This document shows positions 4,326-58,764 of a stretch of DNA of 64,000 nucleotides, piece by piece. Under the pieces are notes generated by a model that was given only the letters and a program-made list of their open reading frames with translations, was not told the DNA's origin and ran no database searches. This DNA comes from Gluconobacter kondonii (GTDB taxonomy: Bacteria > Pseudomonadota > Alphaproteobacteria > Acetobacterales > Acetobacteraceae). The DNA lies in NCBI RefSeq assembly GCF_002723995.1, contig NZ_BEWP01000003.1:62001-126000 (forward strand), in the 5' to 3' direction. A program made the position numbers and the translations under genes. Each line of letters starts with the position of its first letter. Positions within the stretch are counted from its first letter, which is position 1.

Positions 4326-4937
4326 TCACGTAGAAATCGCCTTCAGCCTCCGCAGTTCCCCCAATAACGGAAGCAGCGGCAGCCCCAGAACGGCGTCCTG
4401 CGTCCCGTCAACTGCCGAAAAAAGCTGTATTCCAGGGCCTTCCAGCCGATACGCCCCCACACAGGACAAGATGGCAGCCCCTTCCCGCTCCAGATAGGCC
4501 TCAAGGAACGCCTCCGAAAACGCCCGCATCGTCAGACGCGGCGACGCCAGATGCTCCCAGATTTTCTCGCCCCCTTTATAGAGAACGACCGCAGTGCGCA
4601 GAACATGCGTCCGCCCCCGCAGCCGGCGCAGATGCTCCCCTGCCTCAGCAACAGAGTCCGGCTTGGCAAACGCCACACCGTCCAGATCGAGAATCTGGTC
4701 CGCCGCAACCGTCAGATCCTCGAAGCCCAGATCCCGTGTCGCGAGATTGGCTTTTGCATCCGCCAGAGCGATCGCCGTTTCCGAAAGCGTCTGTCCCTGC
4801 GCCTCGCAGGATCGCCGCAGCGCTTCCTCATCGAGATCGACCGGTCTCGCCTGCACCGTAAGACCTGCATTTTCGAGCAACATGCGCCGGGCTGATGACC
4901 CGCTGGCAAGAATCAGGGAAGTACTGAAAGACATCAT
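4326..4937 (-). CDS. maf: Maf-like nucleotide pyrophosphatase (first copy)
   Basis: A 203-residue Maf/Ham1-fold protein. Family members hydrolyse non-canonical nucleoside triphosphates to monophosphates and guard nucleotide pools. LILASGSSARRMLLENAG (about 8-25) is the N-terminal signature, with the catalytic-type TVAADQILDLDG (about 75-86) and QDAVLGLPL near the end. It differs from the second copy at 43.05-43.7 kb, which has ASTSPRR instead. It ends next to tRNA-Ala and starts at the edge of the putative origin. A maf gene beside hemE at the origin is a known alphaproteobacterial arrangement. Confidence 0.85.
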   Translation of the reverse strand: MMSFSTSLILASGSSARRMLLENAGLTVQARPVDLDEEALRRSCEAQGQTLSETAIALADAKANLATRDLGFEDLTVAADQILDLDGVAFAKPDSVAEAGEHLRRLRGRTHVLRTAVVLYKGGEKIWEHLASPRLTMRAFSEAFLEAYLEREGAAILSCVGAYRLEGPGIQLFSAVDGTQDAVLGLPLLPLLGELRRLKAIST

Positions 4938-5290
4938 GATGTACGACTCCGTACTATCGACTGCGGAAAGAAGGACGAGTACTGCAAGAAACCCTGTGAA
5001 GGCATTGCGTCAGTACTGGGGTACATGGGGATAGTACCTGCCCTCCCGAAAGGAGTACCGAGTACCGTGGATTGTACGGTACACCAGCCGGAACTGGGGG
5101 TTGTACACAGCCTCTCTGTGGGCAATTCGGGATAGAATCAACGACTCCCTTGCAGACTGCGGTCTTCAGAGTTGTACACAGTGTGAACAAGACGGGGTAC
5201 ATTTTCAGAAAGCCGGGTACCCCGGTATCCACAGGGATCATCTTAACCTCCAGCATTTCTTTCTTTTTTCTTTTATGATTAGTGGGCGGC
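4938..5290. other. oriC: Putative chromosomal replication origin (oriC) between maf and hemE
   Basis: This 353-bp segment has no credible gene. TTGTACACA occurs at 5101-5109 and 5172-5180, its inverted relative TGTGAACAA at 5182-5190, and GTATCCACA at 5225-5233. All are one or two bases from the DnaA box TTATNCACA. A pyrimidine-rich AT-rich run follows (about 5237-5281), a possible unwinding element. GANTC, the CcrM site, occurs at 4945, 5135 and 5143. GTAC occurs 14 times between 4941 and 5220. In Caulobacter and several other Alphaproteobacteria the origin flanks hemE. It could instead be an elaborate hemE promoter; no GC-skew test was possible. Confidence 0.6.
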
Positions 5291-6364
5291 ATGATTTCGG
5301 AAAACGCATCTTCCTCACCCTCGTCGAAACCGCTTTCGAAGCCTCTTCTTCGAGCCCTCCGTGGTGAAGCCGTCTGGCCGCCTCCGGTCTGGCTCATGCG
5401 TCAGGCAGGCCGCTATCTCCCCGAATTCCGCGCTATGCGCGATAAGGCCGACTTCCTGACCCGGTGCATGACCCCGGACATGGCTACCGAGCTGACGATC
5501 CAGCCGATCCGCCGCTACGGCATGGACGGCGCGATCCTGTTTTCCGACATCCTGATCCTGCCCTGGGCCATGGGTCAGTCCCTGGACTTCATCGAAGGCC
5601 GCGGCCCGGTCCTCGGTGCCATTCGCTCCGAAGCCGATCTCGCCCGGCTCGATCCCAAGCGCGTACAGGACGCCGTCGCACCCGTGCGCGAGACCTTGTC
5701 CCGCCTCGCCAAAGAGCTTCCCGACGTCACGACCCTTCTGGGCTTCGCAGGCAGCCCGTTCACGGTCGCCTGCTACATGGTTGAGGGCGGTGGATCGCGG
5801 GATTTCGCTGAAACCCGCCGCATGATGCAGACCAACCCGGCGCTGTTCGATCGCCTGATCGACACCCTGACTTCGAGTACCGCCGAGATGCTCTGCGGTC
5901 AGATCGAAGCGGGCGCAGAAGCCGTAATGCTGTTCGATTCCTGGGCTGGAATCCTGCCGCCTTCGGCATTCCGCCGCTATGTGATCGAACCGACGCGCCA
6001 GATCGTCGCGTACATCCGCGCCCGTCACCCCAACATCCCGCTCATCGGCTTCCCACGCCTCGGCGGCATCATGGTCCGCGAATACGCGCAGAAAACCGGC
6101 ATCAACACGCTGGCGCTCGACACGGTCGCTGACCCCGCCCAGATTTCCGAACTGCTGTCCGAAGCCGTCCCGGGCCTCACCCTTCAGGGCAACATGGACC
6201 CGATGATCCTGTTCTCCGGCGGTGAAAAAATGATCCGCGAAGCTCAGGCCATCCGTGACGCCATGCGCGGAAAACCTCATGTTTTCAATCTCGGACACGG
6301 CGTCATGCAGCATACGCCCCCTGAAAACGTGGCGGCCCTCGTCGAGGCGGTACGGTCCATATGA
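5291..6364 (+). CDS. hemE: Uroporphyrinogen decarboxylase
   Basis: A 357-residue cytoplasmic enzyme that converts uroporphyrinogen III to coproporphyrinogen III in haem synthesis. WLMRQAGRYLPEFR near the N-terminus carries the substrate-binding arginines, ILFSDILILPWAMG supplies the catalytic aspartate, and FNLGHGVMQHTPPEN is the C-terminal signature. I use ATG at 5291; an in-frame GTG at 5282 adds three residues and neither has an obvious ribosome-binding site. The stop overlaps the next start (ATGA), so hemE, the HAD gene and hemJ are translationally coupled. Confidence 0.95.
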   Translation: MISENASSSPSSKPLSKPLLRALRGEAVWPPPVWLMRQAGRYLPEFRAMRDKADFLTRCMTPDMATELTIQPIRRYGMDGAILFSDILILPWAMGQSLDFIEGRGPVLGAIRSEADLARLDPKRVQDAVAPVRETLSRLAKELPDVTTLLGFAGSPFTVACYMVEGGGSRDFAETRRMMQTNPALFDRLIDTLTSSTAEMLCGQIEAGAEAVMLFDSWAGILPPSAFRRYVIEPTRQIVAYIRARHPNIPLIGFPRLGGIMVREYAQKTGINTLALDTVADPAQISELLSEAVPGLTLQGNMDPMILFSGGEKMIREAQAIRDAMRGKPHVFNLGHGVMQHTPPENVAALVEAVRSI

Positions 6365-7065: not shown

Positions 7066-7508
7066 CCGACTTTCTCGCGACGTATCAGAGCTGGATATTG
7101 TCCCTGCACATCATGGCGTTCATCGCCTGGATGGCCGGGACGTTCTATCTCCCGCGCCTGTATGTCTATCACTGTCAGGCGGTACCGGGCTCTGTCGAGA
7201 GCGAGCGGTTCAAGGTCATGGAGCGCAAACTCCTGCGCCAGATTATGACGCCCGCCATGATCGTGACATTCCTCGCAGGGGGCGCCCTCGCCTCCATTCC
7301 CGGACTGATCGACTGGAACGCAGGCTGGTGGTGGACAAAGCTGATCTGCGTCTTCGGTCTCGCCGGATTCCACGGTGCCTGCGGCACATGGCGTCGCGGT
7401 TTCGCCGAAGACCGCAACCAGCACCCGGAAAAATTCTACCGGATCGCCAACGAAGTCCCCACCATCCTGATGATGATCATCGTCATCATGATCATCGTCC
7501 GCCCCTGA
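7062..7508 (+). CDS. hemJ: Protoporphyrinogen IX oxidase, HemJ type
   Basis: A 148-residue inner-membrane protein with four predicted transmembrane helices (about 8-30, 57-79, 85-105, 128-147). SLHIMAFIAWMAGTFYLPRL places the conserved histidine at residue 16, and the loop with ERKLLRQIMTPAM is typical of HemJ (formerly UPF0093). HemJ oxidises protoporphyrinogen IX at the membrane, probably passing electrons to quinone. Its coupling to hemE strongly supports the assignment. Confidence 0.88.
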   Translation: MTDFLATYQSWILSLHIMAFIAWMAGTFYLPRLYVYHCQAVPGSVESERFKVMERKLLRQIMTPAMIVTFLAGGALASIPGLIDWNAGWWWTKLICVFGLAGFHGACGTWRRGFAEDRNQHPEKFYRIANEVPTILMMIIVIMIIVRP

Positions 7509-7520
7509 GAAAGATCCCGA

Positions 7521-7605
7521 ATAAAAGTTTTTGGTGAAGCTTTTTCTAAAAAGCTTCAAAAGACCGTCACCTTTTTGAAAAAAGGCGACACCAAAAAACT
7601 TTTAT
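7521..7605. repeat. Composite inverted repeat with three stems, between hemJ and the SDR gene
   Basis: An outer stem (7521-7536 with 7589-7605, one bulged base) encloses two perfect or near-perfect hairpins: 7536-7557 (10 bp, 2-nt loop) and 7566-7589. A/T runs border each arm on both strands. It lies between the convergent 3' ends of hemJ and the SDR gene, so it can serve as a bidirectional terminator. The elaborate three-way shape suggests a dispersed palindromic repeat family, which cannot be confirmed from one copy. Confidence 0.6.
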
Positions 7606-7610
7606 CACTT

Positions 7611-8582
7611 TCAGATCAGGCCGTATTTTACGCCGGTCATCTGTTCCGAGACGGTCCACAGACGCGCGGCCAGTTCGGGTACGTGCGCCAGAGCCGGAAG
7701 CCCGGCGATCCCCGGCACGCCACGGCGTTCTCCCGGCCCCTGTGGGCCATAATAGCTGCCGTCATGCGCCTGCGGACTGGCAAGAGCATAGAGCAGCGGC
7801 CACGCGCCTTCCTCGACCGTCTGCCCCATGGCATGAAACACCGGCCCGGCGACACTGCGCGCCAGACTGCGCATGAACCGCGCGGCTTTGTTGGCGGACT
7901 GGTCCAGACTGCCGTTATTCGCGACGATATCACTCGCCGCCCAGCCTGGATGCGCCGCACGCGAATGAATGGGCCAGGGCGCTTTTGCCGCCCGGCGGTT
8001 CAGTTCGAGCGCAAACAGCAGGTTGGACAGCTTGCTCTGACGATACCGCACCATCGGATTGTAAGAATGCCGCGCATTCAGATCGCCGAACGGGACTTCG
8101 CCCTTCAGCGCCGCCAGAGACGCCACCGTCATGACCGTCGCATTCCCCGCCGCCAGCAACGGCAGCAGCCGTCCGGTCAGAGCAAAATGCCCGAGATGGT
8201 TGGTCCCGAACTGCAACTCGAACCCGTCTTTTGTCGTCAGACGCGTCGCAGGCCCCATAACCCCGGCATTGTTCGCCAGAAGATGGATCGGCTCGCCCCG
8301 GCTGTGCATCGCGGAGGCAAAAGCCTCGATCCCGGCCAGAGACGCCAGATCCAGCAGCTCGAACCGCGATTTGACGAACGGCACCCGTTCATGAAGCCGT
8401 GCTAACGCCGCCTGTCCCTTGTCATGACTGCGACCGCTCAGCACGATCGCAGCACCCTGTTTCGCCAGCCCGCAGGCGACCTCGAACCCCAGCCCCCCGG
8501 TCGATCCGGTGATGAGCGCCGTCTTTCCGTCCAGACGTTCAAGAGAGTCCGTGGACCATGCGGGAGCGGAGGGCTGTGTCAT
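7611..8582 (-). CDS. Short-chain dehydrogenase/reductase (retinol dehydrogenase-like)
   Basis: A 323-residue SDR. The cofactor motif TGSTGGLG lies at about residues 26-33, LANNAGVMG at about 104-112, and the catalytic tyrosine and lysine occur in YRQSKLSNLLFALEL (YxxxK spacing). The overall layout, with the active-site Tyr preceded by HSYNPMV, resembles the WWOX/retinol dehydrogenase branch of oxidoreductases, which is NADP-dependent as a rule. The natural substrate is unknown. It is followed on the same strand, upstream, by the DedA gene with a 24-bp gap, so the two may be co-transcribed. Confidence 0.8.
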   Translation of the reverse strand: MTQPSAPAWSTDSLERLDGKTALITGSTGGLGFEVACGLAKQGAAIVLSGRSHDKGQAALARLHERVPFVKSRFELLDLASLAGIEAFASAMHSRGEPIHLLANNAGVMGPATRLTTKDGFELQFGTNHLGHFALTGRLLPLLAAGNATVMTVASLAALKGEVPFGDLNARHSYNPMVRYRQSKLSNLLFALELNRRAAKAPWPIHSRAAHPGWAASDIVANNGSLDQSANKAARFMRSLARSVAGPVFHAMGQTVEEGAWPLLYALASPQAHDGSYYGPQGPGERRGVPGIAGLPALAHVPELAARLWTVSEQMTGVKYGLI

Positions 8583-31969: not shown

Positions 31970-34486
31970 TCAGAAACCAGCGCTGATGGAACCGGTTGCA
32001 GCGAACGGTGCCGCGATCATGTACGTCGGAGCTGTTCCTTTGACGGTGGTTCCGAATATCCCGCGCTGTGTTTGTGCGTTGGTCTGAACGCCGGTCGGAA
32101 AACCGAGGTAATGGTTGTTGGTGATGTTGGTCAGGTTGAATTTGATGTTCGGTGCTTGCAGGAAGCCCAGGTTTTTGAAGCGATAGCCGACCGAGATATT
32201 CATTTTAACGTAACCCGGAATGTGCTGGTCGTCCATGAATGTCGAATACTGCTTGGCAACGTACTTCAGGCTGTAAGCGCCAAAGATATTACCGTCGTCA
32301 TAGTCGAGGTTGAAGCCAACTTGGTATTTGGGGGTCTCAGGAGCAAATTTTCCAGCGGTATGCAGGTAGTCGCTTGATGCACCGCTACCAGCACGCAGGT
32401 TACTGGTGGTCCGGGCGTCAACGTACTCGAAGGACGCATAGGGCCGCAGGTGATAGAAAATCGGACGTGTTCCGATTTCGGCATCCACACCGTTCGTGCT
32501 CTGGCCACCGGCATTGATGTTCGTCGTGGCGTAGTTGCTGCACGACGCATTCAGGCACTCGGTCTGAGAGAACAGACGGTTTGTGAAGTTGTAGTGGAAG
32601 TACGTGATTGAGGCCATGACCGTTGGGCCTGTGTAACGCCAGCCGGCTTCTTCCGAAATGGAAATTTCAGGCTGTTGGTTTGCATTGGCCTGCGTGCTGT
32701 ATCCGCCGTTTTTATAATATGTACCCGCGTCATAGAGCGAGTAGTTCATCGGGATACGGAAGTTTGTCGCACCAGACACGAAGACCTGCATTTCCGGATT
32801 GATCTGATAGCGGATCGATGCTGTTGGCAGGGGCTGGTAGAATGTTTTGTTAATGTAAGGGCCTGTCGACGTATCGGGCAGCATATTGTGACCGTCACGC
32901 ATGACAATCGCATACTTCAAACCGGCATCAATGGTCAGCTTGTTGTTCAGCAGCGACAGGCTGTCACCAATAAACATGACGTGGGTGCGGGTCTGGGTCA
33001 AACTGGCGCGGTACTGATAGGTCGTGCCGTCATTGAAGATGAAGTTCGGACCACTGCCCCAGATGTTCCAGGGTGTACCGTTGGATGCGATGCCCGTTGC
33101 AGGCGCCGTCTGGATTTGCTTGGCGTATTCGAACCAGTATCCGACCATCAGGCGATTAACGCCGGTTGTCAGCGTCAGTTTCGTGACGGCACCCGGGCGA
33201 TAGGTCGTGGTGAGCGAGGGCTCATACATCAGCGTGCTGTTAGAGGGCTTTTTGCCGTTTAGTGTGCCAGTCATGCTCGTGGCGCCCCAACTGGTTGGTG
33301 TCGTGTAAGCACCGCCGCCGCTGCCATCACCGTACCAGAAGTAAGGGGTTTCCGTGAGGACGAGGTGATCCGTCAACTTGAAGGTCGATGGGGCACTAGT
33401 ATAGATATTGGTAAATGGATTTTGATGAAGTTTGTAGTAATTACTATTGTTTTCTTTGTATGTTCCATTATATACTGTATTGTTTATTGTGGCGTTGCTT
33501 GTGTTTTTAAAGGTGGTTCCATTCGGGCGAGTGCAAGTGGAACCCGCATAACACGGTGCAACGAAACCCGTTTTCTCGCCAAAACCATACGCATTCCACG
33601 ATGGAAGATTTACGCTTGGTGACAGGTAGTTATAGAGGCGGTTTCCGACGATGGCGAGCGAGACGCGGTTGCCATCACCCCAGTCGTTCACGAATTTCGC
33701 TTCAGCATGGAGCTTGCGGTTCGTTGCTTCAGAGTGGATGGCGTCTTCTGTGGCATAGGAGCCAGAGAAGTAGGCGCGCAGATTGGTGTTGCCGATTTTT
33801 CCGGTGTCCAGACGCAGGAAGCCGCGCGTGTAGTCATAGGAACCGTAAGAGACGTCGAATGCGCCACCCTTTTTCATCTTTGGGTCGATCATATACATGT
33901 CGACCACGCCGCCGGTGGCGCTCAGATGAGGGCTGTCGAGGTCAGCAGAACCCTGTGCGAGGCTGATCTTGCGCAGGTTTTCGGAGTCCACGATTTCCTG
34001 GGAGTAGACCGCGAAGTTCCCGATATCGTTGAGCGGGAAGCCTTCAAGCGTGAAGCCCATTTGCGATTGGTCGAGGCCGCGGGCGCTCATATGGCTGCCT
34101 GTCAGACCTGCCGGATCGGAGGACGTGACGTTTGCACCCGGAAGCAGAGCGATGAGCTGCATCGGGTCCTGACCCGGTGCCTGCTTTTCGATGTAGTCGC
34201 GCGAGATGGCTGAAACGGACTTCGCTGCGTCCTGTTTCTGCATCAGACCACCACCAACATCGCGGCGTGTTACGCCATCGAAATAGGTGTGATGACCGCT
34301 GACAGAGACATGTTCTTCATGTTCGTCTGTTGGAGCCGTGTTGCCCATCATGGACGGAGCGGCAGCAGCGACTTTCGTAGGGCTCTTCTTCGTGGAAGGA
34401 GCCGTGCTGTTTGCGGGTGCGGCAAATGCCGACACCGTACCAAACGCAAACAGGGCCGAAGTCGAAAGCAGGCGAGCAAGGCGCAT
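31970..34486 (-). CDS. TonB-dependent outer-membrane receptor
   Basis: An 838-residue receptor with a signal peptide (1-22), an N-terminal plug starting near residue 60 (HVSVSGHHTYFDG, a TonB-box-like segment) and a 22-strand type beta-barrel ending in phenylalanine. Plug motifs such as GLDQSQMGFTLEGFPLNDIG resemble receptors of the alphaproteobacterial group that take up siderophores or other large ligands. An AT-rich stretch around 33380-33560 encodes an Asn/Thr-rich extracellular loop. The ligand is unknown. It stands alone with its own terminator. A sulfotransferase-like gene lies upstream on the same strand, 225 bp away. Confidence 0.87.
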   Translation of the reverse strand: MRLARLLSTSALFAFGTVSAFAAPANSTAPSTKKSPTKVAAAAPSMMGNTAPTDEHEEHVSVSGHHTYFDGVTRRDVGGGLMQKQDAAKSVSAISRDYIEKQAPGQDPMQLIALLPGANVTSSDPAGLTGSHMSARGLDQSQMGFTLEGFPLNDIGNFAVYSQEIVDSENLRKISLAQGSADLDSPHLSATGGVVDMYMIDPKMKKGGAFDVSYGSYDYTRGFLRLDTGKIGNTNLRAYFSGSYATEDAIHSEATNRKLHAEAKFVNDWGDGNRVSLAIVGNRLYNYLSPSVNLPSWNAYGFGEKTGFVAPCYAGSTCTRPNGTTFKNTSNATINNTVYNGTYKENNSNYYKLHQNPFTNIYTSAPSTFKLTDHLVLTETPYFWYGDGSGGGAYTTPTSWGATSMTGTLNGKKPSNSTLMYEPSLTTTYRPGAVTKLTLTTGVNRLMVGYWFEYAKQIQTAPATGIASNGTPWNIWGSGPNFIFNDGTTYQYRASLTQTRTHVMFIGDSLSLLNNKLTIDAGLKYAIVMRDGHNMLPDTSTGPYINKTFYQPLPTASIRYQINPEMQVFVSGATNFRIPMNYSLYDAGTYYKNGGYSTQANANQQPEISISEEAGWRYTGPTVMASITYFHYNFTNRLFSQTECLNASCSNYATTNINAGGQSTNGVDAEIGTRPIFYHLRPYASFEYVDARTTSNLRAGSGASSDYLHTAGKFAPETPKYQVGFNLDYDDGNIFGAYSLKYVAKQYSTFMDDQHIPGYVKMNISVGYRFKNLGFLQAPNIKFNLTNITNNHYLGFPTGVQTNAQTQRGIFGTTVKGTAPTYMIAAPFAATGSISAGF

Positions 34487-35479: not shown

Positions 35480-35649
35480 GAGCGTGTCCTGATCCGGTCT
35501 CTGTTGAGACGGACACTGGCGGCGCTAGGAAACAGAGGCAAAGGGTAGATTGTAACAGAGTGAAAGCCATGTTGCGGACTTTACTGTGTCAAATCTGTCA
35601 CAAAAGGTCTTTTGTATTTGACTTGCCCTGTGCAGGGCGCTTCATGACA

Positions 35650-35833
35650 GCTGACGGTGCCCGTTTGCGCGGGTGAAAAGGGAATGCAGTGTGAAACTGC
35701 GGCTGCCCCCGCAACTGTAAATGCTGGCTGCTGCCTCACAAGGCGGGTGGCGCGATTTCAGGACATGAACCCACTGGCGCAGGCCGGGAAGGGGCCTGAA
35801 GACGGAGCATGAGCCAGGAGACCTGCCGTCAGC
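35650..35833 (+). promoter_or_regulatory. Cobalamin riboswitch
   Basis: The closing stem GCTGACGG (35650-35657) pairs with CCGTCAGC (35826-35833). Between them are GGTGC/GGGTGAAAAGGGAATGCAGT, CTGCCCCCGCAACTGTAAAT, CCACTGG, the GCCGGGAAGG segment and the B12 box GCCAGGAGACCTGCC (35813-35827), which is the canonical order. It lies 119 bp before btuB, so adenosyl- or other cobalamin should shut off the import operon when abundant. The stretch from 35480 to 35650 shows no gene. Confidence 0.95.
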
Positions 35834-35951
35834 ATGAGTTGTCCGAAGGACGGTCCGGGCGGGGTGCATCGGAACGCCGGGTCAGACTGCGCGACGGCGG
35901 GTCTGCCTCCTTCTTGAGGGCAACGCAGAACGACGAGACACCACCATCACC

Positions 35952-58394: not shown

Positions 58395-58513
58395 GTTGCG
58401 TCTTCTGGTCCCGTTACGATCGGGACGTCCGCAAGGCGCACGCTGCCCTTAGCCGGAACGGAAAACAGGCGGGGCGGCAAGTGCCCAACCTGTCCGTGAC
58501 CGGACAAGTGCTG

Positions 58514-58665
58514 CGTTCTCTTCCATCCGGACTATGACCGTCGGCTCCGGAGTCTCACCGGATCTGCTTGTCCCTTCCGGACCGAAATCCGGAAGGCGCT
58601 CGCGGGCTGAGGCGGATAAATCCGCCAATACCGCCGGTGGGGAGTTTCACCCCGCCCTGAGAACG
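58514..58665 (-). promoter_or_regulatory. FMN riboswitch
   Basis: On the minus strand P1 is CGTTCTC (from 58665) pairing with GAGAACG at the other end (58520-58514). Conserved elements GGGCGGGGTGAAACTCCCCACCGGCGGTA, GAGCGCC, GGTGAGACTCCGGAGCCGACGGTCATAGTCCGGATG match the RFN element. It precedes ribD by about 120 bp. The leader from 58395 to 58513 contains small GC-rich palindromes, consistent with an expression platform. FMN would switch off rib transcription or translation. Confidence 0.95.
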
Positions 58666-58764
58666 TCTGTGTTCGAATCAAACTATGGAACCGTCCGGAC
58701 AGGAATGACAAGCAAAAATCTACAAAGGCCTGTTCTCCAAGCCGAAGTCAGGACGTGCCGATAC

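Follow-up and report, generated by a model that had tools for sequence, protein, structure and literature searches.

An array of GTAC tetramers in Gluconobacter kondonii is almost certainly an element of the replication origin (oriC), and a solitary methylase evolves together with the GTAC found at this origin in the Acetobacteraceae. GTAC is, in all likelihood, the target of this enzyme. We consider it likely that the array carries an independently evolved methylation mark, comparable to that on GATC in Escherichia coli and set by the solitary, RsaI-type methylase; an effect of the mark on initiation and a protein that reads it are both putative.

The window analysed here (64,000 nucleotides of contig NZ_BEWP01000003.1, positions 62,001 to 126,000 of the forward strand) contains 56 GTAC, 15 of which lie within 4921-5220 (4921, 4941, 4951, 4979, 5013, 5021, 5034, 5055, 5062, 5074, 5079, 5103, 5174, 5197, and 5217). 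The initial annotation had listed 14 of them, all at their exact coordinates, and had overlooked the one at 4921, which falls within the start of maf. The palindromes that it described, CAGTACTG (5011-5018) and GGGTACCC (5215-5222), and the inverted repeat at 5062-5082 were verified in the sequence, and its estimate of a tenfold excess proved conservative, as the enrichment is approximately 13-fold by composition and approximately 50-fold by the contig's own rate. Composition predicts 1.09 GTAC for 4938-5220, where 14 are present, and 2,000 dinucleotide shuffles of 4938-5290 averaged 2.09, with no more than 8 in any of them. Of the 16 palindromic 4-mers, GTAC is locally the most enriched in the window (15 in its best 300 bp, 57 times its window mean), followed by TATA (seven copies, 30 times the window mean). 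Over the whole window there are fewer GTAC than in shuffles (56 versus a mean of 74.9), and 281 are spread over the 287,581 bp that remain of the 288-kb contig (0.30 per 304 bp), with four in the densest 300 bp when scanned in 8-kb bins.

Screening one strand of the genome with a pattern of three GTAC at short distances returned 24 places, the majority of them in the array and the rest in a second cluster or as singles. The second cluster is located on a 9-kb contig (G000:C35, 7320-7415) and has at least six GTAC in about 100 bp. We considered plasmid iterons and rejected them, because the cluster falls within a putative ORF (7284-7883, minus strand) that encodes a repetitive-looking peptide. 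Elsewhere in the window, eight GTAC lie in 32021-33335, in a stretch of lower GC content, and there are two riboswitches (FMN, 58511-58668, minus strand; cobalamin, 35638-35844, plus strand).

The array lies between an ORF that we take to be maf (4326..4937, minus strand), whose first codons contain the GTAC at 4921, and an ORF that is presumably hemE, encoding uroporphyrinogen decarboxylase (5291..6364, plus strand; ATG at 5291, with GTG at 5282 also possible). It comprises a left conserved core (5013..5065; GTAC at 5013, 5021, 5034, 5055, and 5062, spacing 8-13-21-7) and a right conserved core (5103..5220; GTAC at 5103, 5174, 5197, and 5217), the latter with a spacing of 71-23-20 that is 70-23-20 in most relatives. 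If TTWTNCACA is assumed as the DnaA-box consensus, there is no exact box in 4881-5320, and the boxes there carry one mismatch. Two are copies of TTGTACACA on the plus strand with a GTAC inside (5101..5109 and 5172..5180, both conserved); the others from the one-mismatch scan are TTGTTCACA (5182..5190, minus strand) and GTATCCACA (5225..5233, plus strand), where many relatives have a ATCCACAGG-type box. GTATCCACA is the last DnaA-like box before a T-rich stretch (5256..5276, plus strand) and is abutted by the GTAC of GGGTACCC. The stretch is T-rich in relatives as well and is a candidate unwinding element (DUE).

The initial annotation had placed this segment at a probable replication origin, and several observations support this assignment. 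The array region is directly upstream of hemE and combines DnaA-like boxes with a T-rich element, features of hemE-linked origins. In a genome assembled as a single 2.18-Mb contig (G046), the array is at 1,836,306 and GC skew turns from negative to positive between 1,780 and 1,930 kb, to return from positive to negative between 680 and 770 kb (20 sampled 20-kb stretches, resolution about 100 kb). The stretch with the array has eight GTAC in 300 bp, and the other 19 have at most two. In the window's own contig, the array is about 29 kb to the left of the GC-skew minimum, and the negative-to-positive turn is at about 32000-34000 of the window (about 27-29 kb to the right of the array), an offset that possibly reflects a rearrangement. 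Two words that match what we assume to be the parS motif are situated 23 and 46 kb to the left. According to PMC1914354, the mapped origin of Caulobacter is linked to hemE and has DnaA boxes, and the Cori regions of Caulobacter and Rickettsia resemble the region described here in this respect. They differ from it in that the array is a GTAC array and its left neighbour is maf rather than COG1806. We regard the GTAC-array origin as a clearly distinct variant of the hemE-linked origin of Alphaproteobacteria.

The position between the start codons of hemE and maf is also what would be expected of a regulatory region for either gene. However, three genomes (G032 and G118 of genus g33, and G101 of genus g101) have no array beside hemE and carry it 20-26 kb away on the same contig, and GTAC density in the array is far above that of every other place sampled. 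A promoter element of hemE or maf was rejected on account of the displaced arrays, and we regard the probability of this reading as negligible. As DnaA-like sites interleave with the GTAC, the skew of G046 points to an origin, and hemE is distant in three genomes, we assign the array to oriC. The GTAC maximum, which the initial annotation expected at the maf-hemE gap in many genera, is not located there in these three genomes.

Relatives of hemE were found in 117 of 120 family genomes. Among the 30 loci examined, which are the 30 best hemE matches of these 117 genomes, 22 have 8-15 GTAC within 520 bp upstream of hemE, and 27 have a maf relative (tblastn, E<=1e-3), mostly beside the 5' end of hemE. 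The right-core spacing (70/71-23-20) is present in all 22 array loci, with an extra site dividing the 70 in two, and the left-core series (8-13-21/22-7) is complete in 12 of them, with sites absent or shifted in the other ten. Allowing slight play, the right four-site pattern occurs in 108 of 397 Acetobacteraceae genomes, including 14/14 of the window's genus, and in 25 of the 102 genera sampled. One genome, and with it one genus, is a chance match (G245), so classified because its sequence is not array-like and it has no methylase; a word-reversed control pattern hit scattered genomes with 0-3 matches each per strand. Four of 385 genomes of the class have the pattern, all four from Acetobacteraceae, and it is absent from all 380 sampled genomes that belong to the class but not to the family. 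A stricter pattern matched 111 stretches in an 84,980-species collection, and the 80 listed by title are all from Acetobacteraceae. Among the matches listed are Gluconobacter, Acetobacter, Komagataeibacter, Gluconacetobacter, Novacetimonas, Asaia, Commensalibacter, Bombella, Saccharibacter, Acidomonas, Tanticharoenia, and Brytella, all of which we take to be members of the family. The cluster is thus conserved in many genera, as had been predicted, and no ordinary promoter in the sampled sequence has an equal density of GTAC.

Searching 14 other genomes for hidden arrays with a relaxed three-site pattern yielded four places in three genomes, fewer than the reversed-word control. A three-GTAC search of ten genomes recovered the G025 array as a run and the last triple of the G046 array; in eight genomes without a strict array there was no run of more than four GTAC, except for a simple repeat in G116. 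One genome without a strict array, G100, has a GTAC triple beside hemE and six GTAC in 206 bp. Of the 26 genomes that encode the methylase described below and lack a strict array, 23 have only 1-3 GTAC within 450 bp of hemE, which is few for a SeqA-like mechanism. Three genomes of about 2 Mb (G066, G029, and G116) fall inside the array clade of the hemE tree and have neither methylase nor array; their branches are long, and their placement is possibly unreliable. Instead of an array, the hemE locus of G066 contains perfect boxes of the TTATCCACA type.

The tetramer itself appears to be what is maintained. When 126 distinct arrays were thinned to 37, GTAC exceeded every other 4-mer in over-representation by a wide margin (432 versus 67.5 expected, z 51; GGTA as runner-up, z 17.9), and masking of the conserved positions left 169 GTAC versus 34.9 expected (4.8-fold; maximum of 51 in 100 shuffles). 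These non-core sites have a weak, symmetric flank preference (R before in 73%, Y after in 67%), and flanks are variable whereas the 4-mer is kept. An excess of non-core GTAC with only a weak flank preference is the trace expected of an enzyme or reader with four-base specificity. The same symmetry could be the footprint of a dimer, and the array might then be the operator of a homodimeric (R)GTAC(Y)-binding protein that acts on initiation, as CtrA does in Caulobacter, with methylation being incidental. The right-core positions, fixed in every array locus (22/22), fit such an operator; the variation of the flanks around a constant 4-mer does not, and the link with a GTAC-type methylase would be left unexplained. 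We consider an operator of this kind unlikely.

Some of the GTAC are closely tied to DnaA-box-like sequences. TTGTACACA is present in all 24 arrays at hemE, in one of 26 methylase genomes without an array, and in none of 57 genomes without the methylase (G032, G101, and G118 were left out of this comparison). Exact DnaA boxes are scarcer in array origins than in methylase-negative hemE gaps (0.21 versus 0.88 per 450 bp; p 0.012, with kinship ignored). In deep methylase-bearing lineages, the DnaA box closest to the T-rich stretch is often preceded immediately, on its 5' side, by a GTAC (GGTACCCCGTTATCCACAGG and its variants), and many genomes without the methylase have TCCCCGTTATCCACAG or similar in the same place; a regular expression for a GTAC immediately preceding this type of box matched 43 of 53 methylase genomes versus 15 of 57 without it. 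It is therefore conceivable that the DnaA boxes of this clade have simply diverged to include GTAC (TTGTACACA and similar), with DnaA as the sole reader, given that two conserved sites are DnaA-like at one mismatch and that TTGTACACA marks 24/24 arrays at hemE versus 1/83 other hemE gaps. Yet only 2 of the 15 GTAC lie within a DnaA-like 9-mer at one mismatch, and the 4.8-fold enrichment concerns GTAC outside the core. Moreover, the domain IV motif RDHTTVMHA is identical in the 25 DnaA proteins compared (G088 left out), with and without an array, and a DnaA of altered specificity was rejected for this reason. DnaA as the only reader is thus a very improbable explanation.

Searching 23 genomes for PF01555 (N6_N4_Mtase) produced a match of 201-226 bits in each of them, presumably CcrM, and a second conserved PF01555 gene in all 17 array genomes among them and in G100. 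In the window's genome, this second gene is encoded at G000:C1:230745-231560 (minus strand), adjoining an mltA-like gene. The 17 aligned orthologs share 59-79% identity with this copy and have TSPPY and DPF.G.G; in all of them, motif IV (TSPPY) precedes motif I, which is the order of the beta class with SPPY. The protein from the window's genome scores 144 bits for PF01555 and has no D12 match, and the G040 copy matches D12 below the cut-off (17.6 of 22). NCBIfam equivalog cut-offs were not passed, neither for YhdJ (PRK11524; 97.6 versus 292 bits) nor for CcrM (72.6 versus 830 bits). By alignment search, the methylase occurs in 171 of 397 family genomes, in a single copy in nearly all of them. 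These include all 107 true array genomes (107/108 pattern-positive genomes, the exception being G245) and 64 genomes without the strict pattern; the other 225 have neither. Outside the family it was absent at E<=1e-40 from the rest of the 385 class genomes and at E<=1e-50 from the rest of 200 phylum genomes, and relatives do occur on Paracoccus plasmids. A plasmid of Acetobacter persici (NZ_CP014688.1, 9949-10695) encodes a different methylase that is only 31% identical.

In 19 of 20 neighbourhoods, Tim44-like and MltA-like genes precede the methylase gene (exception, G100). Pfam annotation of the G046 copies of the neighbours (Tim44-like, MltA, a di-haem peroxidase, and an Smr protein) revealed no obvious reader gene. 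In two deep genomes, G109 and G067, the methylase occupies the Tim44-mltA neighbourhood at 7.5-7.8 kb from hemE, thus near the origin. A search of 30 methylase genomes with a single phage nuclease as the query detected no credible R.RsaI-like gene in any of them (five weak matches, the best with E 0.05). The methylase thus looks solitary, as far as a search that could miss a distant nuclease can tell.

The methylase and origin GTAC evolve together. We scored origin GTAC as at least one copy within 250 bp of hemE (by the displaced array in G032, G101, and G118) and methylase absence at E<=1e-20, many of the assemblies being incomplete. The tree, built from the single gene hemE, holds 110 of the 117 hemE genomes; G039, G068, G080, G093, G105, G110, and G082 (no upstream DNA) are outside it. 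All 53 methylase-positive genomes have origin GTAC versus 22 of 57 methylase-negative ones, with 35 having none. The association on the tree (phi 0.66) was not reached in any of 1,692 retained independent simulations (of 5,000), and the empty cell of methylase without GTAC was obtained in two of the 1,692. A Pagel test agreed (LR 21.55, 4 df, p=0.00025, with some rates at bounds), estimating GTAC loss as zero with the methylase and 1.26 without. Among the genomes that lack both, 26 of 35 fall in one clade, which leaves few independent double losses, as the other nine occupy about six placements. G062, a methylase-negative genome that is 100% complete, retains origin GTAC.

That concentration in one clade would suit a coincidence of ancestry, with an RsaI restriction system having left behind a domesticated methylase that guards against GTAC-cutting elements, and the relatives of the methylase in cyanophages are indeed restriction-modification methylases. 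Against such a leftover stand the association that persists when the tree is taken into account, the restriction of dense GTAC to the origin in the sampled sequence, the stable Tim44-mltA neighbourhood (19/20), and the lack of a credible partner nuclease in 30 genomes. We judge an accidental link with the origin to be highly unlikely.

The specificity of the methylase is predicted from its relatives. Synechococcus phages ACG-2014j and Syn19, which carry some of its closest phage relatives, encode methylases that are 43-44% identical over about 255 residues and share SPPY and a middle stretch, and the gene next upstream of each is annotated in the database as R.RsaI endonuclease. A viral survey with the Syn19 methylase as the query covered 53 loci, many of them near-copies; of the 48 with at least 600 bp upstream, 38 have an R.RsaI-like gene there, directly adjacent in 37. 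The methylase of phage ACG-2014f, a slightly closer relative, has no R.RsaI annotated beside it. The closest named relative, from a Paracoccus alcaliphilus plasmid (49.6% identity), has no R.RsaI-like neighbour by tblastn. RsaI recognises GTAC, as stated in PMC4357717, and in the SMRT methylome of the RsaI source strain, m4C at GTAC was assigned to M.RsaI (PMC6256690), in agreement with the SPPY motif of the solitary methylase. Two other GTAC methylases, M.PabI and M.CviQI, are described as making m6A (PMC4357717). From relatives at 43-50% identity we infer GTAC specificity and, as the modification, probably GTA(m4C). The suggestion in the initial annotation of a site for a methylase is thus well backed by a co-distributed solitary methylase of the RsaI (GTAC) type, with GTAC methylation itself being a prediction. 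Titles and opening lines of abstracts in the open-access literature searched contained no report on a methylome or a GTAC origin of acetic acid bacteria.

If this prediction holds, the methylase would mark GTAC genome-wide, with many copies at the origin only, and passage of replication would leave the array hemimethylated. Hemimethylated GTAC inside or against DnaA boxes could then alter DnaA binding, or a putative reader could hold the array, until the methylase restores the mark, by which a used origin might be told from an unused one. A direct effect on DnaA binding is conceivable because several GTACs adjoin DnaA-like boxes or fall within them (TTGTACACA twice; GTACCCCGGTATCCACA). On balance we lean towards a role of the array or its mark in the control of initiation. 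The complete scheme, an independently evolved m4C licence in which the origin, once fired, is hemimethylated and DnaA is blocked or retuned at its GTAC-bearing boxes until remethylation, is a tentative proposal that we place slightly short of probable.

Control of initiation by methylation at the origin is best known from the GATC/Dam/SeqA system of gammaproteobacteria, with Dam belonging to the D12 (MethyltransfD12) family. As in that system, a palindromic tetramer is clustered at oriC (15 GTAC here; 11 SeqA sites in E. coli oriC, as given in PMC5145175), it partly overlaps or abuts DnaA sites, and a conserved solitary methylase is predicted to target it. Unlike Dam, the methylase of the window's genome belongs to N6_N4_Mtase (PF01555) and not to D12, and it probably generates m4C rather than m6A; the tetramer is a different one, the lineage is unrelated, and GTAC is rare elsewhere in the contig. 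With another tetramer, another methylase family, and a reader that is putative, the array would be Dam-like in its working and not a member of that system. M.RsaI of Rhodobacter blasticus 28/5 (CP020470, locus 04320) is linked to the solitary methylase through the cyanophage relatives, which are paired with a nuclease, whereas the Acetobacteraceae gene has no restriction partner that we could find, is kept beside mltA, and is tied to the origin array. CcrM, the solitary cell-cycle methylase of Alphaproteobacteria (GANTC), is from the same Pfam family but is encoded by a separate gene, and its cut-off is far from reached. M.Ssp6803II of Synechocystis also makes m4C and reportedly influences replication (PMC6560206); its motif (GGm4CC) differs from GTAC.

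If the proposed reading is true, methylation logic at origins evolved more than once, with another tetramer, methylase family, and probably base. We know of no earlier origin array built on N4-methylcytosine, so this would be the first. The evolutionary path would be traceable, leading from deep lineages with one GTAC beside the DnaA box on the T-rich side to the acetous clade with its 8-15 copies. Genomes with neither methylase nor GTAC, with the methylase and one GTAC, and with the methylase and an array form a natural series for testing the mark, and acetic acid bacteria are harmless, genetically tractable organisms of industrial use.

The array also has a practical use, as it locates oriC in acetic acid bacteria, where dnaA is distant. 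The dnaA promoter was considered as a second GTAC target, and no cluster was found there (0-2 upstream GTAC in 25 loci, several of which are ended by the contig start). In the seven genomes measured (G046, G070, G025, G013, G022, G060, and G040), the distance between dnaA and the array amounts to 34.5-49.9% of the chromosome or main contig. Base 1 is therefore far from the origin in several of these contigs, because they start at dnaA. In G046, dnaA is at 656,708, near the positive-to-negative skew switch (680-770 kb) that corresponds to the terminus.
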